The notes under the pieces are model-generated. The model made no database searches and was not told where the DNA came from. It was given only the letters and a program-made list of their open reading frames with translations. 64,000 bases of DNA from Firmicutes bacterium ADurb.Bin193 (GTDB taxonomy: Bacteria; Bacillota; Clostridia; Monoglobales; Firm-18): contig MWCQ01000002.1 in assembly GCA_002070105.1 (NCBI GenBank), positions 1-64,000 on the forward strand, written 5' to 3'. A program made the translations under genes and the position numbers. Positions 1-18,777 of this stretch are shown here, piece after piece; positions within the stretch are counted from its first letter, which is position 1, and each line of letters begins with the position of its first letter.

Positions 1-70
1 CATCGCCGTTTCCGAGCGGTTTTGCGAGGAAAATTTCGGCGGCGCGATAAATTCCACGCGGAGCGTATAA
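1..70 (+). CDS. 3' end of an unidentified gene (partial)
   Basis: An open frame enters from the left edge (codon phase starting at base 2) and stops with TAA at 68-70, giving 22 C-terminal residues ending GGAINSTRSV. The stop sits inside the stem of a strong palindrome, as expected for a gene end, and the gene converges on ligA. The fragment is too short to assign a family. It could be a chance frame, but composition and terminator placement favour a real gene. Confidence 0.4.
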   Translation, partial: IAVSERFCEENFGGAINSTRSV

Positions 71-92
71 TAATCGCACGCGATTATTATAC
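65..92. terminator. Bidirectional terminator between the left-edge gene and ligA
   Basis: Two 13-base arms (65-77 and 80-92, GTATAATAATCGC and its complement) are separated by AC. The palindrome lies between the convergent stops of the left-edge gene and ligA. The arms are AT-rich, so T-runs are present on both strands. Confidence 0.6.
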
Positions 93-105
93 AACATTTA
101 TAATG

Positions 106-2208
<2,103 letters not shown>

Positions 2209-2317
2209 TTACCGCTTTGCTGTTTTATAATTGTGCGCGACGCAATAAATTAAAAGTATAAAATATATAAATATTTATGTTTATTATACCAAAAATTTCT
2301 TCGCTTAACAAGGGGGT

Positions 2318-2992
2318 TTAGCGCTGAATATTGGCATAAGCGGAAGGAACCTTACCCACAATAATCGTCTGCGACACGGGAACGCTTGAATCTATGCTTG
2401 CGGTCGCCGCGCCGGCAGGCATTATCGCCGTAACCTGCATATTTATCAAAAGCATGACCTCATGCTTTGTCTGATTTATTCCCGCACTTTCGAATGTATT
2501 TGTAAAGTCTACCTGTATTGTGCCCACGGTTACAAGTTTTATCGGTATTCTCGGCCCCCGCCCCGCAAGAAACTCGTTGTTGAAAAGATTACCCAAAGGT
2601 ATACCTATGCTTTGAATATTCAAATCGTTGACCCTGTTTTGTATTGAGGTTATAATAAGCGCTTTTACCGTATTCATCTTTGCCGTATCTGCGGTTATTG
2701 CGCATATATCTCCGTTTTCGTCTTTTTGTATCGTATAAAGCTCGTTGTAATTGATAGCGCCCGAAGCAAGCTGGTTTGATATTTCCTCGTTTACGATTAT
2801 TGTTCCGATACCCTTTGCGCGCGCCTCGGCTATGGAAAAAGCAAGTGGTATAAAATGAAGCTTTAATGTCTGTATTATAATGGTTATAACCGCAAATATA
2901 ATAAGTAATATAAAAAGTATTCTAAACTTTATTCTGTTCCTTCTTATCAGATAACCGAAATGCGAGCCGAACCTTTTTGCTATTATCCTCAA
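2318..2992 (-). CDS. yunB: Sporulation protein YunB
   Basis: Resembles YunB, a membrane-anchored protein of unknown biochemical role needed for proper sporulation in Bacillus and under the mother-cell factor sigma-E there. A basic N-terminus is followed by one hydrophobic segment (about residues 22-45) and a roughly 180-residue extracytoplasmic part with the family-like segment IPLGNLFNNEFLAGRGPRIP. An in-frame GTG at 3001 overlaps the G-rich Shine-Dalgarno (GGGGGG), so the TTG at 2992, eight bases downstream of it, is the better start (224 aa). The upstream AT-rich stretch (CATATTATAAG) could be a sporulation-sigma -10 element, but I cannot prove this. Confidence 0.85.
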   Translation of the reverse strand: MRIIAKRFGSHFGYLIRRNRIKFRILFILLIIFAVITIIIQTLKLHFIPLAFSIAEARAKGIGTIIVNEEISNQLASGAINYNELYTIQKDENGDICAITADTAKMNTVKALIITSIQNRVNDLNIQSIGIPLGNLFNNEFLAGRGPRIPIKLVTVGTIQVDFTNTFESAGINQTKHEVMLLINMQVTAIMPAGAATASIDSSVPVSQTIIVGKVPSAYANIQR

Positions 2993-3103
2993 ACAAAACA
3001 CCCCCCAGTCTTTTGCCCTATACTTATAATATGCTTGAAGAATTAAAAATGTGTGGGGGAGTAAAAATATAGATAAGGCAGAGGTTTGGGCATTAACACT
3101 ATA

Positions 3104-3139
3104 ATTGCAAAAAAGCCGCCGAGGCGGCTTTTTTGCAAT
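3104..3139. terminator. Strong terminator ending the type IV pilus operon
   Basis: Seventeen-base arms (3104-3120 and 3123-3139) separated by GA, with a GC-rich core (GCCGCC/GGCGGC) flanked by A6 and T6 so that it works on both strands. It lies 40 bases after the last pilus-operon gene (minus strand), and no other candidate terminator of similar strength separates the twelve pil genes. Confidence 0.9.
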
Positions 3140-3178
3140 TCTTATTTTGATATACGCTTATTCAATATAACAATCAGG

Positions 3179-6100
3179 CTAATTCATTCTTAAAACCTTT
3201 TCGGGAACTACTATTATATTGAAATTCTTTTGCACGGTTACTTCGGTTCCTTCGGGAGCCTTATAATTTATTGTAACCGAGTTTTTAATATTATTTACCT
3301 TGTCGGGGGATGTTATATAATTCTTAAGCTTTACTTTGAATACATATTCGTTTGATGAGGCCTCGGCGTTTGCAAAGCCAGACTCCAGACTTTTCGGATT
3401 TGCGTTGGTCTGAAGCGGCGCCGATACATTTGAAGTCGGTGAAACCCCTGAGGCATATTGATTCGTCAGGGGCAAATTGCCCGTGCCCGGCAACGGTTCG
3501 AACAATTCAAGCGCAGCCTCTTTGTTAAGTTTAAAGCTAACCTTAACATCGTTTCCGTCTTCGGGTAATCCCGCCGAATAGTAGATATAATCACCCGCAA
3601 AATAGGTCTGAGTGTTGCCGAAGCTTGCAATACCGTTTGACCGTTTGGGATATATTCCGCCTTTTAAGTTTACATTAAGCGCGGTAAGCTCAACATCATC
3701 CTCTTCAACGATTTCTATCAGCTCAACCTCTTCGCCGGGAAGAATCAGTGCGGTTTTATTGCCGCCCGCCGCAATTTGAGATGTCGCGTTAAGCACAGTC
3801 CTTTTGCCGACTATAACCCTTCCGCCGACATTAACTGTGGACGGGCTGTTGAAGGTCAAATCACGCATAACAATCAAATCTCCGTTTGTTGCCGTCAGTT
3901 GTACTGCCTGATTGCCAACAAGGCTTCCCACATAAATATCGTTTACCGCCGTAATCTGTGTAGTCTGATTTACGACAAGATTGCCTTTTACATAAACGGT
4001 ATCGGCGGTTACTGTTGCGCCCTGGTTGAGAGTCAGCGAATCCAGATACATACAGCCCTCAACGGTAAGCGTACTTGTAGAATTAATGGTTACATCTTTC
4101 CCATAAAAATTCCCGCCCTCGCCGTTTACCTTATTGACGGTCAGATTTAACGATTGATTCGCCATTAAGTTGTTTTTTACTATAAGGTTTCCGTATATTA
4201 CGACGCTACTTGAGGAGTTTACGGTTATATTGTCAACTATAAGCGTAACGGATTTTGTCGGCGAACCCAAGGTCATGTTTTTTGAAATGGTAAGGTTGTT
4301 GGTTTTTATAATCACATTATTGCCGGAGATTCCCGAAACAATGCTTACAAGCTGGTCCACCGTTCTGTTGTTGTATATTTGCGCATTTTTTTCGAATGCG
4401 TCCTCTTCGCTTTTTTTCAGGCGCCTAAAATATTTACCGTAATCGAATACCGCTTTCTTTAAGAATTTATATTCCGATACCGTTACGGGGGATGAGTAAA
4501 TTGTCGATTTCGCACTGTGGTCGGTGTAAATTGTATTTGTCGGATTGGGAATACTTTTTCTTTGGCTCTTGTTGATTACAAAGTAGGGCCTTGTTCCGCC
4601 GCTTTCATCCATTCCCTCATATCTGATTGTACGGGTTGTGCCGTCTACTTTTATCAGTACATCCGCATTATTTGTATCAAAGGACAGATTTTCAAATGTA
4701 ACATAACCTTCCCCGTCAGCGGTACCCTGCGTCTGAGGGTTTATAATAAACTCCTTAATCAGTTCACCGTTTAAATCAGTTACCATTATCCTCTCTTCCG
4801 TTATGCCCGCAAGTCGTTTGTATGTAACGGAAAGAAGATAGCTGTTTTCCGTTTCGGTCGGAACGATTGAAACGCTTTTTACCAGAAGCCCGCCCTCAAT
4901 CGGAGACGGTGCGGGTGAAGGCGTGGGAGAAGATGTCGCCGACGGCGCTTCGTTCTCGTCCAACAGAACCGATGTCATTTGTCCGCCCGCATCTATTCTG
5001 AATGTGCTGCTGTTACCCGAACCCTTTATATTTCCCCCGACTGCAACCCTTCCGCCGACATTAACCAGTATATTCGTCGATGAAAACTCGCCCTCTATGA
5101 TTAAATCACCGTAGGGACAGTTAACCGTCGTAAATAGTGTTGTAACATAGCTGCCGAAGAAAATCTCTTTCTGCACGGTATAAACCTGATCATAAGCATT
5201 ACCGGTTACATTTCCGCCGACAAACAGACGGTCGGCATATATATTGGTTTTAGCCGAAATCTCTAAATTATCCCGTACAAACATAAGTGAGCCGACATCA
5301 AGGGTAGTGTCGTAAGCTTCGTTTAAAACGCTTCCGTTTATAATAAGCGATTCACAGCCAATGGTCATGTTTTGGGTTATACTGAGCTGATCGTATATGT
5401 AAATCAAATCGGATACCGATATATCCGTACCGTAAACAATATTTGAAAGACTTTCGCAGACTATAAGATCCCGGGCGTTTATGTATGTTCTCTGCTTAAT
5501 GAAAATACTTTCGTTAGCGTAGAAGGTCCCCGCAACATTGAAGGTTGTGTCGTATGCTTCACTGGTCAGGTCACCGGCTATCGTAAACTCGTCACAATTA
5601 ACAGTAAGTAATTGTTTTATTGAAAGGTCCTTATGGAAATATGCAAAATCCGCGGCGGTAATCCCTGTATTATAGCCGTTTGCCGTAATTGTTCCTCCGG
5701 CAATAAAGCTGTTTGACTGCACAACATAGGGCGCACTGTTTAAAGTAAAGTCTTTGGATATGTAAATCATGTTTTCGGCATCGAAGGCAGCCATCGAACT
5801 TAAAGTATCCTCGCAGTCGATATACAGATTTCCGTCCGTCTGTACCGATGTCTTTTTAGCCGTTATGGTAGTTGTGTTACTGCTTATATTATCCAGTATT
5901 ATAATATTACCGTAAACCGTAAGGGACTTGCTCCCCGTGCCGGTCTGCAAATCCCCGATTATAAGGGTAACAGACTTTGATAGATTCCCGAAGGTGTAAT
6001 TGGTGGTTAGATTCAGCGTCGCAATCTTAACCGTTATATTGTCTGTAGCGGCATTAATCTTATTGTTAAGGTCACTTACGCTTGTTGCCGTAACAACGCC

Positions 6101-6490
6101 CACTCCGTTTCTTATGTTTTGGAGATATGCATCATTTTGACCTAAAATATCGGTTTTTTCCTCCACGGCAAGCCCGGTAATAAGCTGTTCTTCTTCGTAT
6201 TCGTCCATCTCTTCAAGGAAATAATCTTTATAATCGGATATAGCCGATCTTAAATTGCTTATCTTCTGAACCGTCACGGTCCCCGGCACACTTGTAGCCG
6301 TTGCAGTGTTATCCTGATAGATTTTGGATATACTTGAAGGAACGCTGACCCTTTCACTTTCGGTGGTCGCTATGTAAGGTAATATGGGCGTGGACAACGC
6401 GATAAGCTGATACAACAGAAAAATTGCAACAGCTACTATCACCGTCACAGCCAACACAGTCCGTAAAGACTTCCCTTTGTACTTTAGCAT
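3179..6490 (-). CDS. Giant repeat-rich membrane-anchored protein, last gene of the pilus operon
   Basis: I do not recognise a characterised family. The 1103 residues begin with a short basic segment and one hydrophobic signal-anchor (about 9-31), with no prepilin cleavage motif. The body consists of many short beta-rich repeats of the type I-x-G-N-L-x-V-x-x-x-L (for example VIYGNLIVKNNL), suggesting a right-handed beta-solenoid like polymer-forming or adhesin domains. A Thr/Ser/Pro-rich linker (SPTPSPAPSP, about 520) separates two related halves: both contain a Tyr-x-(D/N) lead-in, a KSVTLI strand and a YGN turn. There is no sortase signal or SLH domain. A strong AAGGAGG precedes the ATG. As the last gene of the pil operon and next to another large repeat protein it is probably a pilus-associated adhesin or assembly factor; this is inference from position. 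Confidence 0.7.
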   Translation of the reverse strand: MLKYKGKSLRTVLAVTVIVAVAIFLLYQLIALSTPILPYIATTESERVSVPSSISKIYQDNTATATSVPGTVTVQKISNLRSAISDYKDYFLEEMDEYEEEQLITGLAVEEKTDILGQNDAYLQNIRNGVGVVTATSVSDLNNKINAATDNITVKIATLNLTTNYTFGNLSKSVTLIIGDLQTGTGSKSLTVYGNIIILDNISSNTTTITAKKTSVQTDGNLYIDCEDTLSSMAAFDAENMIYISKDFTLNSAPYVVQSNSFIAGGTITANGYNTGITAADFAYFHKDLSIKQLLTVNCDEFTIAGDLTSEAYDTTFNVAGTFYANESIFIKQRTYINARDLIVCESLSNIVYGTDISVSDLIYIYDQLSITQNMTIGCESLIINGSVLNEAYDTTLDVGSLMFVRDNLEISAKTNIYADRLFVGGNVTGNAYDQVYTVQKEIFFGSYVTTLFTTVNCPYGDLIIEGEFSSTNILVNVGGRVAVGGNIKGSGNSSTFRIDAGGQMTSVLLDENEAPSATSSPTPSPAPSPIEGGLLVKSVSIVPTETENSYLLSVTYKRLAGITEERIMVTDLNGELIKEFIINPQTQGTADGEGYVTFENLSFDTNNADVLIKVDGTTRTIRYEGMDESGGTRPYFVINKSQRKSIPNPTNTIYTDHSAKSTIYSSPVTVSEYKFLKKAVFDYGKYFRRLKKSEEDAFEKNAQIYNNRTVDQLVSIVSGISGNNVIIKTNNLTISKNMTLGSPTKSVTLIVDNITVNSSSSVVIYGNLIVKNNLMANQSLNLTVNKVNGEGGNFYGKDVTINSTSTLTVEGCMYLDSLTLNQGATVTADTVYVKGNLVVNQTTQITAVNDIYVGSLVGNQAVQLTATNGDLIVMRDLTFNSPSTVNVGGRVIVGKRTVLNATSQIAAGGNKTALILPGEEVELIEIVEEDDVELTALNVNLKGGIYPKRSNGIASFGNTQTYFAGDYIYYSAGLPEDGNDVKVSFKLNKEAALELFEPLPGTGNLPLTNQYASGVSPTSNVSAPLQTNANPKSLESGFANAEASSNEYVFKVKLKNYITSPDKVNNIKNSVTINYKAPEGTEVTVQKNFNIIVVPEKVLRMN

Positions 6491-6572
6491 ATTTTTACCC
6501 CTCCTTCTTTTCTCCCTAAGGAAAACAACAGCTACACCCGGATTCTTCGGTGCCTTCGTATCTATAATGATT

Positions 6573-8846
6573 TTATCCTATTTCACGATAATCTTCAACA
6601 ACTACATTTTTTTGCGATTTAAGCTCGATTTCAATGCTGTCGGGGTCAGCCTCCGATATTCCGCCCTTTGTAAACGCCCTCATAACATCCAAATCAAGTT
6701 TAATGGCTTTTATGACATTACTTTCATTGTATATAAACTTTTTATCGCCCGCGCCTTTAAATATAACGCTTCCTCCCGCGGAAACCGCACCGCGAAACTC
6801 GCCGTCGGTGTCACCGCTTATGATAATGTTTCCCCTTGCGAACAAAAGCCCGCCCTTGCCGTCAATATCGCTCATATTAACATTAAGGTCGCCGCCGCTT
6901 GACTTTAATACAATGTCATCGACGCTTGATAAGTCCGCATTCATATCAATACTGAAGTCAACAAGGGTTGAAAATTCAGGCGACGGCTTACGCTGAGTAT
7001 CCGTTGCCACTATCCATGATTCCGTGTTGTATCTGTCCTTCCACACCTGTTTTAGAAAATTAAGCGTGTCGCTTCCGTAGATATGGTCAAAATCACACAT
7101 AAGCCCGCTTGAGTAGGCGGTTGTCTGTTTGTCCTCCTCACTTAAAGTTAGAGGATAGTACAGCTTTCCGTTTGCGGGGAGCACCCCGAGGGAATAGCCG
7201 TATACCAGTCCGCCGTTGTTTGTACCAATGTTTATTATATCGTTGCCGAGGTGGGGATTGTAGTCAAAAACTCCTTCGATCTCATGGTAGTTTATCAAAT
7301 AATCCTTAAACCGCCTTACCCTCGCATCACCCGTGCTGTTGGGGTGGCTTCCCATTTTCCCCGAAAAGACGGGGTAATCATAAAGCTCTCCGTCAAGGCT
7401 GAGCTTAAAGTTGTTGTCAAAATTAGCGGCGATATCCTCGCCCTCGAAATAGTACCTGTATATCTTGTGGTTTTCGCCTATTCCAAGGCTTTCGCCTGTT
7501 TTATAGGGCGTATCCCTGTACGGGTCAACGGTGTAGATAACATTGCTGTTATATGCCACACCTGATACAACCACATATTTTCCGATATTGATCGTCGAAC
7601 TTGCGAATAAATCGTTATAGGCGATAGACGAGCTTCTGTTTGCGAATTTATCATTTTCATAAATGGTGTCGGGCCCTGAGCTAAAGCCTATAAGACTCCC
7701 CGAAACGGATATGTTTCCGCCGGAGCCGTTAACCTCAAGGTCGTCCTTTATCAGTGTGCTTCCCAAAATAGTAATACTGTTTCCGTTTGAAAACTCCTCG
7801 GTTTGTATCGACTCGGCAAAAACATACGGAACCATGGGGTTTGTGCCGATGCTGTCAACATGCTCCGATAGTTCGCTGTTTTCCACATCTATTTCAATGG
7901 AGGAATTGTCGCCGAAGGTATGGATATATGAATCCGTGACCGTTTCGCCCCTTATTTCTATGCTTCCGCTTTGGGTTGTAAGTCCGAACCGGGATAGGTT
8001 AAGACTGTCTATAACCCTTTGGTTTACGCCCGCAATAATTCCGCCGTAGCTGTGCCCCGTCGCATTCGTTCCTTCGCTTCGGAAGTTGTTTGTCCCCCAC
8101 GCATAAACGGCGTCGGCCTTTTTGTATATCGGTGCGCTGTTTTCCGAGCTCCATATAGTAACCTTGCCTCCGACCGCTATGACATCGCCCTCGGCTGTCA
8201 CGGCCCGCATCCATACGGGATTTCTTCTTTTCAAAACTATGGTCTTAATGCTTACCGAAGCCTCTCTTAAAAGCCTGAACTTTGCAATAATTCTTTTTTT
8301 CTCAACACCCTCGGTTTTCTCTGCCTCAACGGTTACATACAGCTTCGTTTTGGGGTCTAATATCAGGTCTAAATCGTATGAGGGAATTTGTATATCCACA
8401 ATACCGCTTATTGTATTTTTAAGGCCTATAATAGCCTTCCTGCCGTTTTCCTCCTCTTCGTCACTGCATATATATCGGTTAAAGCTGTCACAGTAAACCC
8501 TCTCATACTCTCTTCGAAAAGCCTCCTCATCAAAGATTTCAAGCCCCGTTTCCGGGTCAAAGGAGGTTGCGAACGCTCTGATATCATCGCGGACCGACTC
8601 TGTATAATCCCTTGCTGTCTCCTGCCCTTTTCTCACTACTTTTTCGATTTCCATGTGTGCCGCGGCAATGCTTGCCTCCGTTTCGTAAAACATCAGATTC
8701 CTTTTCAAAACGGAAGCGGAAATCCTTGTATTCATAAGTGTAAAGGTTAACAGACCTACACCAAGGATTCCTGTAAGCATTATGGCAATCAAAACATACA
8801 GATATGCAAATCCACTTTTGTCGGAAACTGATTTATTATAATTCAT
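6573..8846 (-). CDS. Large pilin-like (PilX/GspK-type) protein with repeat-rich ectodomain
   Basis: 757 residues. The N-terminus has a class III-like prepilin signal: a short leader ending SG, then FAYLYVLIAIMLTGILG, a hydrophobic helix continuing into an amphipathic helix (about residues 12-60). The fifth mature position, usually Glu, is Tyr, a deviation shared with tip pseudopilins such as GspK, which also tend to be large. The rest is extracytoplasmic, with beta-strand repeats similar in style to the next gene (GSTLIKDDLEVNGSGGNISV). It sits between a minor pilin gene (51 bases upstream) and the 1103-residue protein (82 bases downstream). A pilus-tip or initiation subunit is the likely role. 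The pilin-like start is visible; the tip function is inferred. Confidence 0.7.
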   Translation of the reverse strand: MNYNKSVSDKSGFAYLYVLIAIMLTGILGVGLLTFTLMNTRISASVLKRNLMFYETEASIAAAHMEIEKVVRKGQETARDYTESVRDDIRAFATSFDPETGLEIFDEEAFRREYERVYCDSFNRYICSDEEEENGRKAIIGLKNTISGIVDIQIPSYDLDLILDPKTKLYVTVEAEKTEGVEKKRIIAKFRLLREASVSIKTIVLKRRNPVWMRAVTAEGDVIAVGGKVTIWSSENSAPIYKKADAVYAWGTNNFRSEGTNATGHSYGGIIAGVNQRVIDSLNLSRFGLTTQSGSIEIRGETVTDSYIHTFGDNSSIEIDVENSELSEHVDSIGTNPMVPYVFAESIQTEEFSNGNSITILGSTLIKDDLEVNGSGGNISVSGSLIGFSSGPDTIYENDKFANRSSSIAYNDLFASSTINIGKYVVVSGVAYNSNVIYTVDPYRDTPYKTGESLGIGENHKIYRYYFEGEDIAANFDNNFKLSLDGELYDYPVFSGKMGSHPNSTGDARVRRFKDYLINYHEIEGVFDYNPHLGNDIINIGTNNGGLVYGYSLGVLPANGKLYYPLTLSEEDKQTTAYSSGLMCDFDHIYGSDTLNFLKQVWKDRYNTESWIVATDTQRKPSPEFSTLVDFSIDMNADLSSVDDIVLKSSGGDLNVNMSDIDGKGGLLFARGNIIISGDTDGEFRGAVSAGGSVIFKGAGDKKFIYNESNVIKAIKLDLDVMRAFTKGGISEADPDSIEIELKSQKNVVVEDYREIG

Positions 8847-8897: not shown

Positions 8898-9707
8898 TTA
8901 TCGATACCTGTAAAATACTCTTTTTGAATTGACCTTATATTCCTTGTTTGTAGCAATATGCCGAACGCTTATCGTTATGTCGGATGTGGCAACACTTCCC
9001 GTGCGGTTGTCTTCACCACCAACCATGTTGTTGTAGATTGTCCAGACTCCCGGTGATTCCGCGCTCATTTCAACCGAAACGGGACCGCCCTGCTCAACAT
9101 CCGTAATGTAGACGGTTTTGTCGTTGGCGGCTTTGTTCTGCAAAATAAGCTTTACATTGCCCTGCCCGCCTATTACGCGTATATGTCTAAAGTCTACATC
9201 TGCAAGTGTCGTACTGCCTGTTATAATACCTTCGGGTTTGAACTCTATTACAATCTCTGTTTTGTCGGGCGGAATTGAAACAGGATAATTCAGCTGGTCC
9301 ACAAGTGCGTTTGTGAATACGAGCACGCCATCGGTGCCTGCGTCAATCGTAAAAAGAAGTCCGTCCGCCTCAAGCTTCTGCAAGTCTCCGAAGCTCTCCA
9401 TTACATCGCCCTCAATGATTTCCACGGTTCTTTTTACCTCAAACGCTTTGCTGATGTTGTAAAGGACATATTCGGATTCAAGAATAGGCTCATTAACCCG
9501 CGGAACGGCGATTTCCTCATCGCTCATAGCCTCAATAATGCGGTTTGCGATGGCATACCCCTCTATTGCCGTTCCGGAGGTTTCGCCGCCCTTAACGGAT
9601 GATATAAACATCCCTGTAATAGGCACGACAAACACACCAAGCACCGCAATCGCTATTAAGACCTCAACAAGCGTAAAGCCTTTCCTGCAACCGATATGAC
9701 TATTCAT
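8898..9707 (-). CDS. Type IV minor pilin, PilV-like
   Basis: A 269-residue prepilin. The leader MNSHIGCRKG is followed by the cleavage site G|FTLVE and a hydrophobic helix VLIAIAVLGVFVVPITGM, so PilD should cut after Gly10 and methylate the new N-terminus. Glu5 of the mature protein is present. The remainder is a beta-rich globular domain with no recognised subfamily. Its start overlaps the end of the pilO-like gene by 8 bases, implying translational coupling. It is larger than typical major pilins (about 150 aa), which fits a minor pilin with an adhesive or assembly role. Confidence 0.85.
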   Translation of the reverse strand: MNSHIGCRKGFTLVEVLIAIAVLGVFVVPITGMFISSVKGGETSGTAIEGYAIANRIIEAMSDEEIAVPRVNEPILESEYVLYNISKAFEVKRTVEIIEGDVMESFGDLQKLEADGLLFTIDAGTDGVLVFTNALVDQLNYPVSIPPDKTEIVIEFKPEGIITGSTTLADVDFRHIRVIGGQGNVKLILQNKAANDKTVYITDVEQGGPVSVEMSAESPGVWTIYNNMVGGEDNRTGSVATSDITISVRHIATNKEYKVNSKRVFYRYR

Positions 9708-10791
9708 AATTCACTTCAACATCCCCGCTTGTTATGTTTTGCGTTACCCTCTTGATTCCGTCGGGACCCGTAACGGTAACGCTGACCTTCCTTCCGGAGT
9801 CGTTATAAACATTAAGCAGTATCCTCGACATGTCGTCATCGGACAAAATTGCGTTGGAGAACACCACAACCGAGATGTCTTTCCCCACCGGGGAGAATTC
9901 AACCATTGCATTGGGCTCGGTCTTGGGATATACATCCCTCGGAGTCCTGTATCTGTAATAGAATTTTCCGTCCCTTGTGGCAAAATAAAGGTTAATCCAG
10001 TTTGTCTTGTTTCCGTCCGCAAAGATTTCTGTCTGCTTATTCTTTCCGACTATTATGTTTGCCGCATCGTCGGTGTTGCTGTTCATTATGATGTAAAAAT
10101 CATAAGGCTTCACTCTGGGCGTTTGTCTGTCGGCGACGGAGTCTGCCTCATCGCCACTTGATTTTGGCAGGAAATCCGCCCCGCCTTCGAAGATGCTGAA
10201 CAGGTCTACCTTGCCCTTAAAGGGATAGTCTTCAAGTATTCTGGGCGGTGCGGGGCTTTTCAGATAGCCGTAAAAGGCTACGACCGCGCTTCCGTCAAGG
10301 TTGTTGTCAACGCCCTTAAAGCTGAGCTGTTTTATCCCGACCCGCTCGCTGTTGTTGTTCAGAAGATTTACAAATGAACGGATTGCAAGGTAGTCCCCTT
10401 TGAACGAAAACTTTATGTTCATGTATATTCCGCCGGCTGTTTTGTGCTTCTCAACGGCGTCAAAGCTTATGTTGCTAATATTAACGCCCGCCTTATCCGA
10501 CAGGATTTTAAGCATATTCAAAGCGTTTTCCTGCGGTAACTCCTTCGGGAAAAGTCCGCCGAAGCTTAAATACTTGTTCTTTATTTGAAATTCCTGTTCT
10601 TCAAGCTGTAAAAGCGTCATGCCTATGGATTCAATATCATGAAGCTCCTGCTGCGAGTATTCAAGCGCCTTCCTTGCGGACTTTAAATTATCATGCACTG
10701 TTTTGAAATACGCAAGATTAATAGCCGTTGCCAGAATTAAGACAACAAGAATGAAAATTGCAGCTTTATTTTTAGCTAAACCTGTGACCAT
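9700..10791 (-). CDS. pilO: PilO-like inner-membrane assembly protein with an extra C-terminal domain
   Basis: PilO partners PilN and PilM in the membrane alignment complex of type IV pili. A single transmembrane helix (about residues 10-28) is followed by a coiled coil (about 30-70) and the PilO-like alpha/beta core ending near residue 200. At 363 residues it is much longer than usual PilO (about 200): residues roughly 215-363 form an extra domain (with the KPYDFYIIMNSNTDDAANI segment and a beta-rich tail) that I cannot assign. A GGAG-containing Shine-Dalgarno precedes the ATG. Position directly after pilN supports the call. The extra domain may compensate for the missing outer-membrane PilP/PilQ partners in a Gram-positive cell (inference). 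Confidence 0.8.
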   Translation of the reverse strand: MVTGLAKNKAAIFILVVLILATAINLAYFKTVHDNLKSARKALEYSQQELHDIESIGMTLLQLEEQEFQIKNKYLSFGGLFPKELPQENALNMLKILSDKAGVNISNISFDAVEKHKTAGGIYMNIKFSFKGDYLAIRSFVNLLNNNSERVGIKQLSFKGVDNNLDGSAVVAFYGYLKSPAPPRILEDYPFKGKVDLFSIFEGGADFLPKSSGDEADSVADRQTPRVKPYDFYIIMNSNTDDAANIIVGKNKQTEIFADGNKTNWINLYFATRDGKFYYRYRTPRDVYPKTEPNAMVEFSPVGKDISVVVFSNAILSDDDMSRILLNVYNDSGRKVSVTVTGPDGIKRVTQNITSGDVEVNYE

Positions 10792-10870
10792 TTTTAATCT
10801 CCACTCCCTTTGCGCCGCACAATTTCAGCGGCTTTGAGATTAATTTCCCTTCGGGTTTTTGTATCGGTAA

Positions 10871-11494
10871 TCAGGGTGTTTTATTGCTGCTTACCGGAGC
10901 TTTTTTCTTTTCCTTTATTAAGTCTGCCGAATTGCATTCTATGTTGAAAACATTTGCATATTTTGAGTTTTTCTTGTTATCGGCTTCCTTTTTCGTTACC
11001 GAGTTTAGGAATACATCGGCAAGCTTTTCATTCTTTTTCAGGACAACCAAAAGGTCGGCAACCACAAATTCGTCCTTTGCCATTCCCTTAATAGTGATTT
11101 TCCCGTCCTCGCTGAAGGTTACATCCGTAAACGATATGTCGGACGGAACAGTCTCTTCAAGCGTTTTTAATATTTCAAATATAGGAGCCTCTATCGAGGT
11201 AACAGACTCCTGATATTGTTCCATTTTTGCAAGCTCCGCCTTGTTGCTGTCGATTCTGTCTCTATAAGCCTTGTACTCGGCATAAGCCTTAATTTTATTT
11301 GTAATAATGGCTCTTTGACGGTTTGTTATATCAATCTGCAACGAAATAAAATATGTGTAAGCGGCGGTGCACAGATTAACAATAACCAGCACGCTGACAA
11401 GCATATATAAAATATGCCTTACGATCTTATGCTTTTCGATACTTTTCGGAATTAAATTAAAGCTGTCTTTGGAATACATCTGGTTGGGATTCAA
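10871..11494 (-). CDS. pilN: PilN-like type IV pilus assembly protein
   Basis: 207 residues: a short cytoplasmic segment with FNLIPKSIEKHK, corresponding to the conserved PilN N-terminal peptide that docks into PilM; a transmembrane helix (about 26-50); a coiled coil (52-95); and a small alpha/beta domain with the PSDISFTDVTF segment typical of PilN/GspL-like folds. The start is TTG with GAGGAG 11 bases upstream. It lies 38 bases after pilM and 79 before the pilO-like gene. A Lys-rich C-terminal tail (KEKKKAPVSS) is present. Confidence 0.85.
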   Translation of the reverse strand: MNPNQMYSKDSFNLIPKSIEKHKIVRHILYMLVSVLVIVNLCTAAYTYFISLQIDITNRQRAIITNKIKAYAEYKAYRDRIDSNKAELAKMEQYQESVTSIEAPIFEILKTLEETVPSDISFTDVTFSEDGKITIKGMAKDEFVVADLLVVLKKNEKLADVFLNSVTKKEADNKKNSKYANVFNIECNSADLIKEKKKAPVSSNKTP

Positions 11495-11532
11495 CTTACG
11501 ATCAACTCCTCACCGCGGCGCAATGTCACGCC

Positions 11533-12606
11533 CTAATTTTTCGGCTTAACGCACGCGCCGATACATTTATAAAACTGTAGGATTCTCTCTTCACTTGTGT
11601 CAATCCTGCTTGCATAGCTTACTCCGTCAAAGGCAAAGCCCCTGCTTACATTGGCGCTGAAGGTATCCCTGATAATTTCCTCAAGACCCTTCATGCTTGC
11701 GCCTGCGCCGAAAAGTATTATATTGTCGACCTTGTTGCCCGCACCCCTCGACTCATGAAAGTCGAAAAATGCGGTAAGACTGTCTAAAAAATCGGTGATA
11801 ACCGATTTAACGATTTTGTCCACACCCTGAGGGTCGTCGTTTGAATATATCTCGAACAAGTCGCGGGTATTCCTTAAGTGCGGCACACCGTCCCACCCGC
11901 TTTCACCGTTTGAAAACGCATCGTCGATGTATGAGGTTCCGAAGCTCAGCACCTTGTTGTATTTTATAATATTGTCGGTTTCTATGGTTACGCCCGTTAT
12001 TTGGTTGCTTATGTCGACAAAGGCTGTGGATATACGGGATTTGCCCGCCTCCTGTTCGGACTTCTCCGGCTTTGCGACCTTTTGCCTTGAATACAGCTTT
12101 ACAATGCTGTCATGGGAAACATCAATGGACATTAGATCAAGTCCGAGAAGTTTTGAAACCTCCATATATCCGTCGATAACCTGAGACGGAACAGCGGTAA
12201 CAAGAATTCTGTACGGATGCTCCGCTCCCTCTATCTTAGGTATGATTTTGTAGTCCACCACGCATTTCGAAAGGTCTATCGGAAAATAGTTGGGAGCCTC
12301 TATCTCCAAAAAGCTTTTAATAATCGACTTTTTATGATTAAGCACCTGAATCTCCCTCATAATTACAGAGGGTGCGGTAATTGTGATTATAGCCTTTTTT
12401 ATCCTGATACCGTTTCGAGAGAGATATTGTTTTATACTGTCCGCAACCGCTTTTGCATCCTTGATTTCTCCGCCCTGTATGCTGTCCTTGGCGGTCGGAA
12501 TCAATTCCATACGCTTTATTTTAACGCCTTTGTTGTTTCTTGAAACAACAATCAGCTTTGTAGCGGAACATCCGAATTCAAAAACTGCGAAATTTTTATT
12601 AAACAT
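11533..12606 (-). CDS. pilM: PilM, actin-like pilus assembly ATPase
   Basis: A cytoplasmic FtsA/actin-like protein that binds nucleotide and the PilN N-terminal peptide. The 357-residue chain starts MFNKNFAVFEFGCSATKL, matching the first phosphate-binding strand, and has a later phosphate loop FVDISNQITGVTIE and an adenosine-region IILFGAGASMKGLEEI. The open frame extends 15 codons further upstream, but the ATG at 12606 has a GGGGG Shine-Dalgarno 8 bases before it. It sits between a minor pilin gene and pilN, the usual MNO order. Confidence 0.93.
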   Translation of the reverse strand: MFNKNFAVFEFGCSATKLIVVSRNNKGVKIKRMELIPTAKDSIQGGEIKDAKAVADSIKQYLSRNGIRIKKAIITITAPSVIMREIQVLNHKKSIIKSFLEIEAPNYFPIDLSKCVVDYKIIPKIEGAEHPYRILVTAVPSQVIDGYMEVSKLLGLDLMSIDVSHDSIVKLYSRQKVAKPEKSEQEAGKSRISTAFVDISNQITGVTIETDNIIKYNKVLSFGTSYIDDAFSNGESGWDGVPHLRNTRDLFEIYSNDDPQGVDKIVKSVITDFLDSLTAFFDFHESRGAGNKVDNIILFGAGASMKGLEEIIRDTFSANVSRGFAFDGVSYASRIDTSEERILQFYKCIGACVKPKN

Positions 12607-12662
12607 TGGTATACCCCCAAGTATGTATTTATGACAACGGCCGATTCGCACGGAAACCGCCG

Positions 12663-13190
12663 TTAATTATCAACCTTAATTCTGTGATAGTTGCTCACTT
12701 CACAAACTGCCTGTTTATCATATCTTGTCGCATGGGTTCTTATTCTTACGGTAATCAAATCGTTGTCGGTTTTTTCAACGGCAAAGCCTTCAATACCGTC
12801 TATGCCCGTTGCAACAACAAATCTTGAATCGTCTACCGTAAGCACAAACTCATGCAGGTTTGTTTCGGCGTTAAATTCCACGGTATATGTATAATTAAGA
12901 AGTTGTCCTTCCGAATCCGGTATTGTTAGCGTAAGACCGTTTCCGTCCGGAACGGAATAAAGCTCTCTCTGGTTGCTCCGCCTTATGTTGGTCATTACAT
13001 TCTCCATCGCCGCGCGCGCCGAACTCTGGGCATCAAGCCGTGACATAACCGCAAAATACGCATTCTGGTTTGTAAATAAAAATGCGCATGCAAGGGATAT
13101 GACCAATCCCGAAATCGCTATTGCAAGTATTATTTCCAACAAGGTTACGCCCTTACGGCATTTTAGCATACCCAAGATTATCCGCACCAC
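12663..13190 (-). CDS. Type IV minor pilin, PilW/GspJ-like
   Basis: A 175-residue prepilin with leader ending KCRKG and cleavage motif G|VTLLE followed by the hydrophobic helix IILAIAISGLVISLACAFLF. Glu5 is present. The amphipathic continuation (about residues 45-75) and the small beta-rich domain resemble PilW/GspJ-type minor pilins. It lies 24 bases after pilD and 56 before pilM, so it is part of the pilus operon. Subclass assignment is tentative; prepilin status is clear. Confidence 0.88.
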   Translation of the reverse strand: MVRIILGMLKCRKGVTLLEIILAIAISGLVISLACAFLFTNQNAYFAVMSRLDAQSSARAAMENVMTNIRRSNQRELYSVPDGNGLTLTIPDSEGQLLNYTYTVEFNAETNLHEFVLTVDDSRFVVATGIDGIEGFAVEKTDNDLITVRIRTHATRYDKQAVCEVSNYHRIKVDN

Positions 13191-13214
13191 TTTTCCTTGA
13201 TATTTAAGCGGGTT

Positions 13215-13961
13215 TTAAAACAACCCGACATACCAGGTTAAAAGCCTTTCACCGAACAGCGCCGAGATAAAAATCCCCGCAGACAAAAACGGCGCGAAGG
13301 GTACGGCATACTTCCTTCCCACACGCTTTACCGCCATAAGCCACACCGCTACGGCAGAGCCGATAAGGGATGCAATAAAAAGCGCCATAATTATATTCTG
13401 CCAGCCTATACAAAAGCCGAAAGCCGCCATCATCTTTATATCCCCGCCGCCCAGGCCGCCTTTGGATATAAGTGCGATTATATAAAGAATAAGACTTGCG
13501 GCAAAAAAACCGATTATATAGTTTAATATGTTGCCCCTGTATATGTTGAAAGCAAGCCCGCCGACAAACGCAATAGCAAGCGCACCGTCGGGTATAATTC
13601 CGTTTTCGCCGTCAACGACCGCAATGAATAAAAGGAGTGACGACAAAAACGCAAAATAAATTGTTTCCCACGAAAGCCCGAACCTTAAAAAGACAATAAC
13701 AAACAAAACCCCCGAAGTAAGCTCGACAAGAGGGTAACGCGCACTTATCTTTTCGCCGCACAGGCGACATTCACCCCCAAGCACAAGCCAGCTTACAAGA
13801 GGGATAAGGTCGTAGTATTTTATTTTTCCGCCGCAGGAGGGGCAGTGCGAGCCGCCCGTTACAACAGACTCTCCCTTAGGCAGTCTGTGGATGCATACAT
13901 TCAAAAAGCTGCCTATGCACACGCCGTACAAAAACATTAAAAAAGCAAAAATTATCGCCAT
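13215..13961 (-). CDS. pilD: Prepilin peptidase / N-methyltransferase PilD
   Basis: Cleaves the leader of the prepilins in this operon and methylates the new N-terminus; polytopic membrane protein, 248 residues. The N-terminal cytoplasmic loop has the four zinc cysteines CPSCG...CRLCG (about residues 39-67). The catalytic aspartates are expected in DGENGIIPD (about 115-123) and GGGDIK (about 172-177), both present. Hydrophobic helices fill the rest. It lies downstream of pilA, beyond the hairpin at 13983-14016. Confidence 0.96.
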   Translation of the reverse strand: MAIIFAFLMFLYGVCIGSFLNVCIHRLPKGESVVTGGSHCPSCGGKIKYYDLIPLVSWLVLGGECRLCGEKISARYPLVELTSGVLFVIVFLRFGLSWETIYFAFLSSLLLFIAVVDGENGIIPDGALAIAFVGGLAFNIYRGNILNYIIGFFAASLILYIIALISKGGLGGGDIKMMAAFGFCIGWQNIIMALFIASLIGSAVAVWLMAVKRVGRKYAVPFAPFLSAGIFISALFGERLLTWYVGLF

Positions 13962-13982
13962 ATAAAAACTCCCGAAAGGGTT

Positions 13983-14016
13983 GCATTACCCCCGCAGGAT
14001 TCTGCGGGGGTAATGC
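13983..14016. terminator. Strong hairpin after pilA (partial terminator or mRNA stabiliser)
   Basis: Fifteen-base arms GCATTACCCCCGCAG and complement around a 4-base loop, in the 95-base gap between pilA and pilD. On the minus strand the stem is followed only by AACCCTTT, a poor T-tract, so some read-through into pilD is expected. It would allow pilA mRNA to be more abundant than the rest of the operon. Confidence 0.7.
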
Positions 14017-14056
14017 TATATATGCTTTGTTGTCTTATTAAGCTGTTAAACTGTTA

Positions 14057-14536
14057 TTAGCTTTCTCCGCCTTCTCCGCCTTCTCCTACCGGGGCTGATG
14101 TCATTTTTCCTGTCTGATCTATGGTATATTGCGTTCCGTCGAAAGCAAATGTCACATTACCTTCAAAATCATCAAGATTTACAATTTGAATTGAGAATTG
14201 GCTATTGCCGCTCTGAGTTGTCATTTCTTGAATATTGGGGAATGCTTTTTTGAGTTCAATTGTTAGTTGATCGCCATCATCTAGCTCATTCAAGTCAATG
14301 GGTCCAATTGGTTCAATGTTATTATCCGGATTTGTATCGCTGTTAGCGGATACGACTGCAAGGTTCATTGATTTTACGATTGACTGAGCTGTCGCTATAT
14401 CGGCTTTTACCTTTGAATCTTTAAGGATGTTAAGCGCCGACGGGATTGCAATTGCGGAGATTACGCCGAGAATCGCGATTACGACAATAAGCTCTACGAG
14501 TGAAAAACCTTTTTTTGACCTAAACATTTTTAACAT
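14057..14536 (-). CDS. pilA: Major type IV pilin PilA
   Basis: A 159-residue prepilin with leader MLKMFRSKKG, cleavage site G|FSLVE and the classic helix LIVVIAILGVISAIAIPSALN. The globular domain is small and there is no cysteine, so no disulfide D-region as in Gram-negative pilins. The C-terminus is Gly/Glu-rich (GEGGEGGES). Small size, position after pilC, and flanking RNA hairpins on both sides suggest the major, highly expressed subunit. The Shine-Dalgarno is AGGAGG. Confidence 0.92.
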   Translation of the reverse strand: MLKMFRSKKGFSLVELIVVIAILGVISAIAIPSALNILKDSKVKADIATAQSIVKSMNLAVVSANSDTNPDNNIEPIGPIDLNELDDGDQLTIELKKAFPNIQEMTTQSGNSQFSIQIVNLDDFEGNVTFAFDGTQYTIDQTGKMTSAPVGEGGEGGES

Positions 14537-14562
14537 TTTTACTCCTCCTGTTTTTTTATTTT

Positions 14563-14584
14563 TAAGCCTTTTTCAAAAGGCTTA
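14563..14584. other. Hairpin in the pilA leader
   Basis: Ten-base arms TAAGCCTTTT and complement with a 2-base centre, just after the pilC stop and about 27 bases upstream of the pilA start on the minus strand. It is followed by A-rich sequence and the AGGAGG site, not by a T-tract, so 5' stabilisation or RNA processing is more likely than termination. Confidence 0.5.
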
Positions 14585-14593
14585 ACAACAAAT

Positions 14594-15802
14594 TTATCCG
14601 ATGGTTTCCATCATTCCGAACATCGGCTGGACTATCGAAAGTACGATAAAGCCGATAACCACCGCGAGAACGCTGATTAGCGCAGGCTCCATAAGCGATG
14701 TGACCTTTTCGGTCTGTTCGGCAATCTCCTCATCGTAAAAGTCGCCTATCTTGTCAAGAACGCTTTCAAGCCGTCCGGTATCCTCACCTACTTTAATCAT
14801 CTGAACGGTCATTTTCATAAACATATCCGTTTCAATGAGCGCCTGTGTAAGCGTAAGACCATGCCCGACGCTTGCTCTTACCGTTTCAACCGCACGGCGG
14901 TAAACCTTGTTGCCGACAACCTTTGAAACTATCTCAAGCGCGGTAAAAAGCGGAAGCCCCGACGCAACAAGCGAGGATAAAATCCTTGCAAACCTTGATA
15001 TGATGATTTTTTTGTTAAGCTCGCCCACCACGGGAATCATAAGCTTTATTTTGTCTATGCCGAGCGAGCCTATCTCTGTTCTTTTTAGAAGCTTAAAGCC
15101 CACGACAAGCGAAAAAATCCCTAAAAGAATCAAATACCAGTATTTCGTTACGCCGCCCGAAATCTTAAGCAGAAGCTTAGTCGTACCCGGAAGCTCCGTC
15201 CCCGAACTTTCAAACATCTTAACGAAATTCGGCACAACGCCGATTAAAAGTATTGCAATAACTATAACGGCAATAAACAGGAGAACAATCGCATAAGTCA
15301 TCGAGCCTTTTATCTTGCCAGTTATGGCAATTTCTTTTTCAAAATGCACCGACATTTTCAAAAATGAGTCCTCAAGATTACCCGACAATTCGCCCGCTTC
15401 GATAATATTGAGCATAATGTCGGGGAAAACATCCTTGTGGTTGCGCATTGCGGCGTTTAAGGACTGTCCCTTTTGGACTTCGTCCTGCATATTTGCCGTA
15501 ATTTTCCGCAGTTTTCTGTTTTCGGTCTGTCTTTTTAATATGTCAAGCGCGGAAAGCACGGGAATCCCCGAATCAAGCAGAATCGCAAACTGATTGCAGA
15601 AAATGGACAAATCCTTAGGTTTAACCTTGTTCAAAAACCCAAGGTCAATTTCGCTGTCAAAAATCGACCCTACGCTAACCTTAAGCGGCGTGTACTTAAG
15701 CTCCTTAAGCTTGTTTATCGCCGATATCTTGTCTGGCGCGTCCAGGGTTCCCTTGACAATCTTGCCGTCTCTGTTAATTGCCTTATATTTGAACATTTCC
15801 AT
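14594..15802 (-). CDS. pilC: Type IV pilus inner-membrane platform protein PilC
   Basis: A polytopic membrane protein that couples the PilB/PilT motors to pilin insertion and removal. The 402 residues begin with the N-terminal peptide MFKYKAINRDGKIVKG (one residue in) and contain two T2SSF domains (about 70-190 and 270-395). Each has the expected helix-rich cytoplasmic part (QFAILLDSGIPVLSAL; RFARILSSLVASGLPLFTAL) followed by membrane segments. It lies 100 bases after pilT. Confidence 0.96.
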   Translation of the reverse strand: MEMFKYKAINRDGKIVKGTLDAPDKISAINKLKELKYTPLKVSVGSIFDSEIDLGFLNKVKPKDLSIFCNQFAILLDSGIPVLSALDILKRQTENRKLRKITANMQDEVQKGQSLNAAMRNHKDVFPDIMLNIIEAGELSGNLEDSFLKMSVHFEKEIAITGKIKGSMTYAIVLLFIAVIVIAILLIGVVPNFVKMFESSGTELPGTTKLLLKISGGVTKYWYLILLGIFSLVVGFKLLKRTEIGSLGIDKIKLMIPVVGELNKKIIISRFARILSSLVASGLPLFTALEIVSKVVGNKVYRRAVETVRASVGHGLTLTQALIETDMFMKMTVQMIKVGEDTGRLESVLDKIGDFYDEEIAEQTEKVTSLMEPALISVLAVVIGFIVLSIVQPMFGMMETIG

Positions 15803-15902
15803 TTGGCTTCTACCTCACAAGGTCAAGCTTTTTTGCGGCATTTAAGGCTTTTTGCCCCAAGCCCGATTTTAAATCGCGGTAAACTCCCCCTAAAAACTAA
15901 AA

Positions 15903-16988
15903 TCAGGGGTTATACGAAACATAGACCGAGGCAAGACTCTTTTGCATCGCCTCTTTGTCTATACAATATGTAAGGGCATTTTCTTTTGTTATTTCGCCGT
16001 TTTTCACAAGATCTATAAGGCTTTGGTCAAGTGTCTGCATTCCAAGCTGTTTACCCGTCTGAAGCTGAGAAACAATCTGATGGTTCTTCCCTTCCCTGAT
16101 AAGATTCCTTATGGCGGGCGTAATCTTCATAACCTCATACGCCGCGACACGGGTTCTGCCGTTTATGTGAGGGATAAGCTGAATTGACACAACACCCTCT
16201 AAAATTGCGGCAAGCTGTATTCTTATCTGGTTTTGCTGATGGGGCGGGAATACATCGACTATCCTGTCGATTGATTTGCAGGCGCCCACCGTGTGAAGCG
16301 TTGAAAACACAAGGTGACCAGTTTCCGCCGTGGTCAGCGCGATGGAAATCGTCTCAAAATCACGCATCTCTCCTATCAGAAGCACATCGGGGTCCTGCCT
16401 TAAGCATGCCCTTAATGCGTTTGCGTAGGAGCCGGTATCGGAGCCTATCTCCCTCTGGTTAAACAGTGATTTTTTGTTCGGGTGCAAAAACTCGATAGGG
16501 TCTTCCAGAGTTATTACATGGGCGCTTCGCGTTTTGTTTATTTCGTTTAATATTGTCGCAAGGGTCGTCGATTTACCCGAACCCGTAGGACCCGTTACAA
16601 GAACCAGCCCTCTTTTAAGCTGTGCAAACTCTAAAATCGAAGGCGGCATATTAAAGTCCTTCGCATCGGGAACCTCCGATTTTATGATACGGAGCGCGGC
16701 GGCATAGTACGATCGCTGTTTAAATACATTTACCCTGAACCTTGCCTTGTCTTCAAAAGTATACGCAAAGTCAACCTCACCGTCACGCTCTAAAATTTCG
16801 AATTTATCCTTGGGCGTTATTATCCTTGCGATATCCTCCGTATCCTGCGGAATCAGAATCTCGTCATTATACGGCACAAGATTACCGCTTATCCTCGACA
16901 TAAGCGGCGATGTCGCCGAAATAAGCAAATCCGACGCTTTAAGTGCGATTACATCTTCAAAAAACTTAAACAGCTGTTCCTTTTGCAA
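15903..16988 (-). CDS. pilT: Pilus retraction ATPase PilT
   Basis: A cytoplasmic hexameric ATPase that depolymerises the pilus; 361 residues, typical length. It has an N-terminal PAS-like domain, Walker A GPTGSGKS (133-140), a Walker B region DVLLIGEMRD, the His box STLHT, and the retraction-specific AIRNLIREGK motif near residue 292. Presence of PilT implies the pilus can retract (twitching or DNA uptake). It lies 38 bases after pilB. Confidence 0.96.
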   Translation of the reverse strand: MQKEQLFKFFEDVIALKASDLLISATSPLMSRISGNLVPYNDEILIPQDTEDIARIITPKDKFEILERDGEVDFAYTFEDKARFRVNVFKQRSYYAAALRIIKSEVPDAKDFNMPPSILEFAQLKRGLVLVTGPTGSGKSTTLATILNEINKTRSAHVITLEDPIEFLHPNKKSLFNQREIGSDTGSYANALRACLRQDPDVLLIGEMRDFETISIALTTAETGHLVFSTLHTVGACKSIDRIVDVFPPHQQNQIRIQLAAILEGVVSIQLIPHINGRTRVAAYEVMKITPAIRNLIREGKNHQIVSQLQTGKQLGMQTLDQSLIDLVKNGEITKENALTYCIDKEAMQKSLASVYVSYNP

Positions 16989-17026
16989 TAGGGCACCTCT
17001 TTTTTGAATACGATATTAACGCAATT

Positions 17027-18718
17027 TTATTCAAGCGAATACGCGATTTTTATAAGCTCGTCCAGTGTTGTAACACCGTCTCGCACCAGCCTTGCGCACG
17101 AAGCCCTCAGTGTGAGCATCCCTTCTTCAATAGCCGTTTCCCTGATCGCATCGCATGAGGCGTTCTGGTTTATAAGCTCTTTTATGGCATGAGATATGGG
17201 GAGAATCTCATATACGCCTATTCGCCCTCTGTAACCCGTGTTGTTGCACGCGGGGCAGCCCTTTCCTCTGTAAAGCTTTTGAATCCCCTCAAGCTTAATT
17301 GTCTGTATAATGGTAAGCTCGTTGGGCATCGGCTCATACTCCGTCTTGCATTCCGAGCAAATCCTGCGCACAAGCCTCTGGGCAATAATACCCACTATCG
17401 CCGAGCCGATTAAAAACGACTCGATATTCATGTCAAGCAGGCGAGTTATGGTGCTCGGAGCATCGTTGGTATAGATTGTGCTGATAACCAAATGACCTGT
17501 AATAGCCGCCCTTATCGCAATCTCAACCGTCTCCTTGTCGCGTATCTCACCGACTACGATAATATCTGGGTCCTGCCTCAAAAACGAACGGAGAGCGGAG
17601 GTAAAGTCAAGCCCCGCCTTCGCGTTTACCTGAACCTGATTAATGCCTGTTATCGATGCCTCGACAGGATCTTCAATCGAAACGATGTTAACATCGTCAC
17701 GGTTAAGCTCGCCAATCATGGTATACATCGTCGTCGATTTGCCGGAGCCGGTAGGGCCTGTGATTAGTACCATGCCGTATGAATTTTTTATGATGCTGTC
17801 GAATTTCTCAAGGTCTGACTTGTATCTTATAATGTCCTTCTTTGACATTACAAGACCCTTTTTGTCGATTACCCTTATAACAACCTTTTCGCCGTGAATC
17901 GTTGGCAGGCAGGAAACACGCATATCATACTCGTTGTCGTCAATCGTCAGGGAAAACCTGCCGTCCTGGGGCTTGCGCTTTTCCGCAATATTAATTTGTG
18001 AAAGAATTTTTATCCTGACGATTATAGCGGAAAGCAAGGTTATATCCTGTCTCATAACCTCTTCAAGCTGACCGTCAATCCTTAGGCGAATTCTAATTGA
18101 ATTTTCCTGTGGCTCTATATGTATGTCAGACGCATTCGACCTTATTGCCTGTTCGAAAACGGTATTTAATATTTTTATGATCGGAGAGGATGTTTTAAGC
18201 GCTTCAATATCAACATCTTCCTCCTGCTCGGTTACGGTTCCGCCAAACTGCTTTTTGAATTCCTCCGCGGCGGCGATTGCCGTGCCTTCGCCGAAATGCA
18301 GTCCGATAATCTTTCGAATCTGATCAAGCGAAGAAATTACAGGCTCAACCGCCATTTGAGTATAGTAGGTTATATCATCTATTGCATAGATATTAAGCGG
18401 GTCGCTCATTGCAACAATAAGCTTTCCGTTCTCTATCCCGATGGGTATAAGGTCATATCTTCTCGCTATGGTTTCTGAAACAAGCTTTACTATTTGGGGG
18501 TCAACCTCAATTTTCTTTAAATCGACATATCTTATACCGAACTTTTTTTCGAGGACTCGTAAAAAATCGTCCTGAGACACCATTTTCATATCGGTTACAA
18601 TCTCGCCGATTCTTTTTCCGGTCTTTTTCTGTATCTCTAAAACTTCTTTAAGCTGTTCTTTAGTGATTAATCCGTCAGCAATCAGCAATTCACCGATACG
18701 GACCTTGCTCGCCCTCAA
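17027..18718 (-). CDS. pilB: Pilus extension ATPase PilB with c-di-GMP-type N-terminal domain
   Basis: A cytoplasmic motor that drives pilin polymerisation; first gene of the operon. The TTG at 18718 follows GGGAGG by 9 bases; the in-frame ATG at 18778 lies in the promoter and is rejected, giving 563 aa. Residues about 5-65 hold a tandem MshEN-like motif (RIGELLIADGLITKEQL, then RIGEIV), a known c-di-GMP-binding layout. Walker A GPTGSGKSTT is at 321-330, Walker B at IIVVGEIRD, and a zinc tetracysteine follows (CSEC...CPAC). Unusually, the His box reads STIYTNDA, with Tyr at residue 416 (bases 17471-17473) where His is normal. Confidence 0.95.
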   Translation of the reverse strand: MRASKVRIGELLIADGLITKEQLKEVLEIQKKTGKRIGEIVTDMKMVSQDDFLRVLEKKFGIRYVDLKKIEVDPQIVKLVSETIARRYDLIPIGIENGKLIVAMSDPLNIYAIDDITYYTQMAVEPVISSLDQIRKIIGLHFGEGTAIAAAEEFKKQFGGTVTEQEEDVDIEALKTSSPIIKILNTVFEQAIRSNASDIHIEPQENSIRIRLRIDGQLEEVMRQDITLLSAIIVRIKILSQINIAEKRKPQDGRFSLTIDDNEYDMRVSCLPTIHGEKVVIRVIDKKGLVMSKKDIIRYKSDLEKFDSIIKNSYGMVLITGPTGSGKSTTMYTMIGELNRDDVNIVSIEDPVEASITGINQVQVNAKAGLDFTSALRSFLRQDPDIIVVGEIRDKETVEIAIRAAITGHLVISTIYTNDAPSTITRLLDMNIESFLIGSAIVGIIAQRLVRRICSECKTEYEPMPNELTIIQTIKLEGIQKLYRGKGCPACNNTGYRGRIGVYEILPISHAIKELINQNASCDAIRETAIEEGMLTLRASCARLVRDGVTTLDELIKIAYSLE

Positions 18719-18777
18719 ATGTAAATCGCCTCCCAAAAATACGCAAAAAACGACCAACAGCGATAATTTATATCGCA

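Follow-up and report, generated by a model that had tools for sequence, protein, structure and literature searches.

The window analysed here, the first 64,000 nucleotides of contig MWCQ01000002.1 of Firmicutes bacterium ADurb.Bin193, carries a type IVa pilus operon that lacks outer-membrane components, as recognised from Pfam and NCBIfam matches and gene order, whose final two genes encode proteins of 757 and 1103 residues (P757 and G1103). These two products probably act together at the end of the filament, P757 as a tip-capping pilin devoid of glutamate at position 5 (Glu5) and G1103 as a non-pilin tip adhesin mounted on the tip complex. Whether they typify an unrecognised class in Clostridia and their relatives, in which exported non-pilin tip effectors with interchangeable heads and C-terminal docking domains would be borne by a PilK-type tip pilin of 700–900 residues and would fill the role of PilY1 while lacking the PilY1 propeller, is a broader proposal that we regard as evenly poised; G1103 would be its double-solenoid version.

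The operon runs on the reverse strand in the order pilB (17027)-pilT-pilC-pilA-pilD-pilW-like (12663)-pilM-pilN-pilO-pilV-like (8898)-P757-G1103, with gaps of 51 bp between the pilV-like gene and P757 and of 82 bp between P757 and G1103. Together with the other pil genes, P757 thus adjoins the gene of an I-type (PilV-like) minor pilin. The original prediction that two large repeat-bearing proteins end a type IV pilus operon was borne out in coordinates, terminator and motif enrichment. The β-strand motif G[NDSRK][LIV]x[VIL] is found nine times in G1103 against 1.5 expected, a count reached by none of 2000 shuffled sequences, and five times in P757 against 1.1 expected (reached by 10 of 2000 shuffles), where the repeats are real but modest. 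The prediction had contained neither the internal duplication of G1103 nor the counterparts of both genes in other pil operons, nor the lack of a convincing Pfam or NCBIfam match for either protein.

P757 had also been described as pilin-like, and this is supported, the protein being of the PilK/GspK/PilX type. Its N-terminus comprises a short leader ending in glycine, MNYNKSVSDKSG, followed by a hydrophobic pilin helix, FAYLYVLIAIMLTGILGVGLL. The PilX_N family was not matched by P757 itself, and it exceeds the Pfam cut-off in the homologues from loci L044, L048, L065 and L122. Minor-pilin tip complexes described in the literature are capped by a subunit without Glu5 (PMC10191384), and because of this a position at the pilus tip would be the natural reading for P757. 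The elements of the gene are the following:

6573–8846, reverse strand: P757 open reading frame, large PilK/PilX/GspK-type pilin and proposed tip-capping subunit (homologous over its full length to proteins encoded in other pil operons, with E as low as 3e-111; no Glu5 in any of 44 family members)
8742–8846, reverse strand: leader (residues 1–12, Gly last) and first part of the hydrophobic pilin helix, with Tyr at +5 and not Glu (sequence, hydrophobic window and family alignment)
7542–8204, reverse strand: repeat-rich region, residues about 215–435, probably a solenoid (family alignment and motif counts; AlphaFold2 (AF2) model of low confidence)
6732–6914, reverse strand: second repeat segment, residues about 645–705, where conservation within the C-terminal region is highest (family alignment)
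6576–6614, reverse strand: conserved C-terminal strand (family consensus ending in WKE), possibly the last strand of the pilin sheet (family alignment)

Full-length relatives of P757 were detected by BLAST against the pil operons of other families, the best of them in locus L044 (34% identity over 825 residues, E 3e-111), and an 11-member alignment of the family revealed conserved repeat regions in addition to the conserved final strand. The profile built from this alignment matches 49 of 391 genomes of the class and 22 of 398 genomes of the phylum, while relatives sought in viral contigs were not found. The 44 family loci examined extend from Clostridia to a probable Caldicellulosiruptor, and every one is a pil operon or a fragment of such an operon; PilM is encoded within 36 of them, and the others are either short contigs or show different pil genes. 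L119, a 3-kb contig with the pilin only, cannot be judged in this respect. As judged from these matches, both the family of the pilin and the slot for an adhesin behind it recur across the class and also elsewhere in the phylum. The supposed specificity of the pair to this lineage must therefore be given up, save for the sequence of G1103. In locus L128, a second and partly masked gene of the family (9029–11237, forward strand) follows the first, which may represent a tandem duplication of the tip pilin.

The position after the pilin is where the second half of the argument lies. In 41 of the P757-family loci the downstream sequence exceeds 2.5 kb, and the slot was defined in them as the next four closely spaced genes after the pilin. 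This slot holds a protein of at least 500 residues in 31 of the 41 loci, often preceded by one or two small pilins, and one of at least 800 residues in 23, against a background of 4 in 596 other genes of the same loci; these counts are slightly generous, as some giants in the most distant members (L108–L110) are probably unrelated genes, such as the DNA translocase-like protein of L109 and L110. The N-terminus is hydrophobic in 30 of the 31 slot giants, and many of those in relatives show ordinary signal peptides. According to Pfam scans their modules differ from locus to locus and include CBM3, PA14, Fn3, vWA, NPCBM, bacterial Ig and the DUF7305 solenoid, the latter matched by the giants of L044, L046 and L113. 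Since CBM3, PA14, vWA and NPCBM modules are borne by these downstream proteins, an adhesive role at the tip is the best reading for P757 and G1103. In four genomes outside the class (L122–L125) the family pilin is followed by a vWA protein; these four giants had been considered as tapirins, a candidacy that was rejected. Beside the pil operon of L124, with its vWA protein at the tip slot, we also find a GH9-CBM3x3-GH48 enzyme (2–3967, reverse strand). This is presumably the CelA architecture of Caldicellulosiruptor, to which the L124 genome probably belongs.

A comparison between loci indicates that the pilin is conserved while the giant is exchanged between lineages. The pilins of L063 and L066 are 50% identical over 820 residues and are followed by unrelated giants (vWA versus NPCBM, E 0.54), and those of L071 and L075 are 47% identical with giants that are alike in part only. 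Within one subgroup (B: L048, L051, L052/L055/L056/L058, L059, L060 and L113), giants headed by CBM3, PA14, Fn3 or a solenoid have in common a roughly 170-residue C-terminal domain, recovered in leave-one-out searches with E between 1e-7 and 2e-28, and another C-terminal domain is shared by subgroup C (L071, L075, L076 and L082). Only these two subgroups hold together in this way; a single universal C-terminal domain for all giants was considered and is unproven, hhalign between subgroups being not significant. By visual inspection, a motif V/I-x-V/I...P-x-L-x seems to recur near the C-terminus of many giants; the giant of the window fits it poorly. Among 952 proteins, the best match to the C-terminus of G1103 is the L046 giant, with a score reached by 2 of 5000 shuffles. 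This giant, itself a double-solenoid protein, belongs to one of the pil operons most closely related to that of the window, and the similarity is no more than suggestive.

G1103 proved to be built around a diverged internal duplication, in which residues 38–345 align with 635–908 at 26% identity (E 3e-19). It is not a prepilin, because the residues behind the only nearby glycine are charged (KSLRT), and Glu5 is missing there as well. No relative by sequence was detected in 290 other genomes of the class, in genome contigs or in the PDB; within the pair, it is only G1103's own sequence that seems to have no full-length counterpart. Its parts are as follows:

3179–6490, reverse strand: G1103 open reading frame, exported or membrane-anchored non-pilin giant and proposed tip adhesin (large protein at the equivalent slot in 31 of 41 related loci)
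6401–6457, reverse strand: signal or anchor helix, residues 12–30 (best 19-residue hydropathy window 2.76; no second such segment found in G1103)
5456–6379, reverse strand: unit A, residues 38–345, comprising a conserved head region and the beginning of the first solenoid (internal duplication)
4946–6043, reverse strand: putative first solenoid region, residues about 150–515 (repeat motifs and homology to unit B; boundary approximate)
4607–4945, reverse strand: Pro/Ser-rich linker (516–533) and Ig/Fn3-like stretch (534–628) (sequence inspection; the Ig-like fold is presumed)
3746–4591, reverse strand: unit B, residues 634–915, including the predicted second solenoid (internal duplication; AF2; tapirin and other β-helices as best structural matches)
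3182–3703, reverse strand: C-terminal domain, residues 930–1103, proposed docking domain (best C-terminal match in the L046 giant; not confirmed by profile search)

The AF2 model of residues 634–1103, aided solely by the first copy of the duplication, shows a solenoid with a block of about 160 residues (about 714–873) at a predicted local distance difference test (pLDDT) score of 76–94 and low confidence elsewhere. The expectation that both proteins would form β-solenoids is thus well supported, at the level of prediction, for part of G1103; the model of P757, from a two-row alignment, scored 36 and was not used for fold searches. When the second solenoid of G1103 was aligned with VIA-align, the top three structures were C-terminal domains of tapirins, the β-solenoid adhesins of Caldicellulosiruptor (Z 15.6–15.9, rmsd 2.5–2.8). 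Since other β-helices come close behind (HxuA 15.2, Cthe_2159 14.4) and Foldseek gave no significant E-value for the model, the tapirin likeness is only a lead. No tapirin was retrieved by phmmer with G1103 against the PDB up to E 10, and the DUF7305/bactofilin solenoid of Pfam gave no match to G1103 at E ≤ 1. An assignment of G1103 as a tapirin was consequently rejected, what we see being a match in predicted fold and not sequence homology. Tapirins bind cellulose and are also encoded beside a type IV pilus locus, and G1103 differs from them by its two solenoid units and its C-terminal domain; by analogy, its ligand might perhaps be a polysaccharide.

Known systems offer several partial precedents for this arrangement. 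Gram-negative type IVa pili have PilX-PilY1 (PilK-PilC), where the gene of a tip pilin lacking Glu5 likewise stands just before that of a large modular non-pilin protein, in some cases with vWA, that caps the tip; PilY1 is modular and depends on PilX for its stability (PMC7541494; PMC8179133). The gene of G1103 also comes right after that of a PilX-type pilin and has a modular non-pilin product. The differences are that the PilX pilin is small, against 700–900 residues here, and that the present host is a monoderm. Because the PilY1 β-propeller (PF05567) was found by hmmscan neither in G1103 nor in the giants scanned, the pair was not filed in the PilY1 family. In the monoderm Streptococcus sanguinis, the type IVa pilins PilB and PilC also place adhesive modules (vWA, lectin) at the tip, but with the head fused to the pilin, whereas here the head is a separate exported protein (PMC8179133). 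CofB of enterotoxigenic Escherichia coli is a large tip pilin that serves as adapter for the secreted protein CofJ (PMC8179133), although this system is of type IVb and its likeness to the window pair is functional only. No paper describing a gene pair of the P757–G1103 type in monoderms was found, in a literature covered incompletely, so that an earlier description is possible.

Altogether, these observations allow us to propose how the pair might work. P757, once processed by PilD, would begin and cap the filament of the monoderm type IVa pilus and would carry a large β-rich body, probably a solenoid. G1103 would be exported separately by way of the signal or anchor at its own N-terminus and would dock on the tip complex, most likely via its C-terminal domain, to display two β-solenoid units as an adhesive head, and retraction by PilT would then draw the cell toward whatever this head grips. 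The pair would in this manner act like PilX-PilY1, with a conserved tip pilin and, as effector, a modular non-pilin protein that swaps its outer modules between lineages.

Several observations weigh against this proposal. The tip location and the contact between P757 and G1103 are both inferred, the structure of P757 is poorly predicted, and the link of G1103 to the other giants is weak: the pilins of the window and of L044 are as close as E 3e-111, yet their giants have no similarity detectable by BLAST, and the profile test did not confirm the C-terminal similarity to the L046 giant. Moreover, G1103 has a long N-terminal helix that lacks a clear cleavage site, and it may therefore stay in the membrane. 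The original prediction had left the choice between an adhesive tip and a surface scaffold, and it is here that the scaffold should be considered: G1103 could be a membrane-anchored surface scaffold or adhesin that is merely co-transcribed, its uncleaved helix serving as anchor and its solenoids spanning the wall, with P757 alone at the tip. A helix without a clear signal-peptidase site, unlike the ordinary signal peptides of many related giants, and the missing BLAST similarity to these speak for such a view, but the slot after a P757-family pilin holds adhesin-like exported proteins in most relatives and the C-terminus of G1103 resembles that of the L046 giant, and we consider this explanation rather unlikely. 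The adhesive tip, upheld by the modules of the relatives, is the part of the prediction that stands as most likely.

The absence of a large slot protein in 10 of the 41 loci, because of which the giant is to be taken as dispensable in some lineages, is a further difficulty, and it would suit the idea that P757 is a modular pilin and itself the adhesin, as in S. sanguinis PilB/PilC, with G1103 as a fast-evolving protein without a role in the pilus. Large monoderm pilins with bulky grafted modules are indeed known adhesins (PMC8179133). P757, however, is conserved over its full length, unlike exchangeable adhesive modules, which are instead borne by the recurrent downstream giant, and this makes the idea improbable. 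Still less credible is that the pair serves as a DNA receptor for natural transformation like ComZ/PilA2 of Thermus, with P757 as the ComZ-like pilin and G1103 aiding DNA binding. ComZ of Thermus thermophilus is, as P757, a large GspK-like pilin lacking Glu5; it carries an inserted β-solenoid, and a tip location and DNA binding have been proposed for it (PMC6561018). The order of elements in P757 (pilin helix, repeat region and conserved final strand) is compatible with this layout, but no sequence match between the two proteins was detected, and the slot giants carry carbohydrate- or protein-binding modules. ComZ functions in DNA uptake, and we know of no giant partner for it. Furthermore, other prepilin gene groups of the same genome (G000), on contigs C13 (57716–60600) and C18 (3606–4262), perhaps belong to a competence or second pilus system and could provide the competence pilus.

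If P757 and G1103 do form a tip module, monoderms would possess their own replacement for PilY1, the tip adhesin of Gram-negative bacteria. The head gene beside each pil operon would then predict what is gripped, that is, cellulose (CBM3), glycans (PA14, NPCBM) or proteins (vWA), and the target of a species' pili would become testable from a single gene in each genome.

The remainder of the operon and its borders comprise the following features:

8898–17027, reverse strand: upstream pil genes, from pilT to the pilV-like gene (Pfam/NCBIfam and gene order; pilB continues to 18778)
18778–18806, reverse strand: promoter-like site at the operon head, TTGACA-17-TATAAT with a TG extension (12/12 consensus match, which is not proof of function)
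3103–3140, reverse strand: bidirectional intrinsic terminator at the operon end (symmetrical 17-pair hairpin and T-run)

Beyond the terminator lie yunB and then ligA. The promoter-like site at the operon head and a second perfect one (12/12, 19138–19166, forward strand) point apart and flank the start of the operon; a search of Rfam gave no match between positions 2000 and 20000 of the window. The pilM, pilC and P757 of the window (9700–18778) are nearer to those of pil operons from another order (genomes G082, G021 and G179; loci L044, L045 and L046) than to those of G293, the sole other pil operon in their own family, and PilM is present in only 2 of 8 genomes of the family and 5 of 51 of the order. 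Such patchiness, with closer relatives in another order, hints at operon loss or horizontal transfer.

Divergent from the pil operon, the window encodes a 736-residue protein resembling N6-adenine methyltransferases, with N-terminal helix-turn-helix-like segments (19179–21389, forward strand), which looks solitary or type IIG-like. It is followed on the opposite strand by a radical-SAM protein (21393–22769) that by eye resembles the Clostridia SCIFF-peptide maturase. Further away (53289–61068, reverse strand), a sulfatase-like protein and an exo-enzyme-like protein of 1110 residues, both with ends that look by eye like the N-terminal-type domain of copper amine oxidases, stand beside an SLH-domain protein, a cluster possibly devoted to the degradation of surface glycans.

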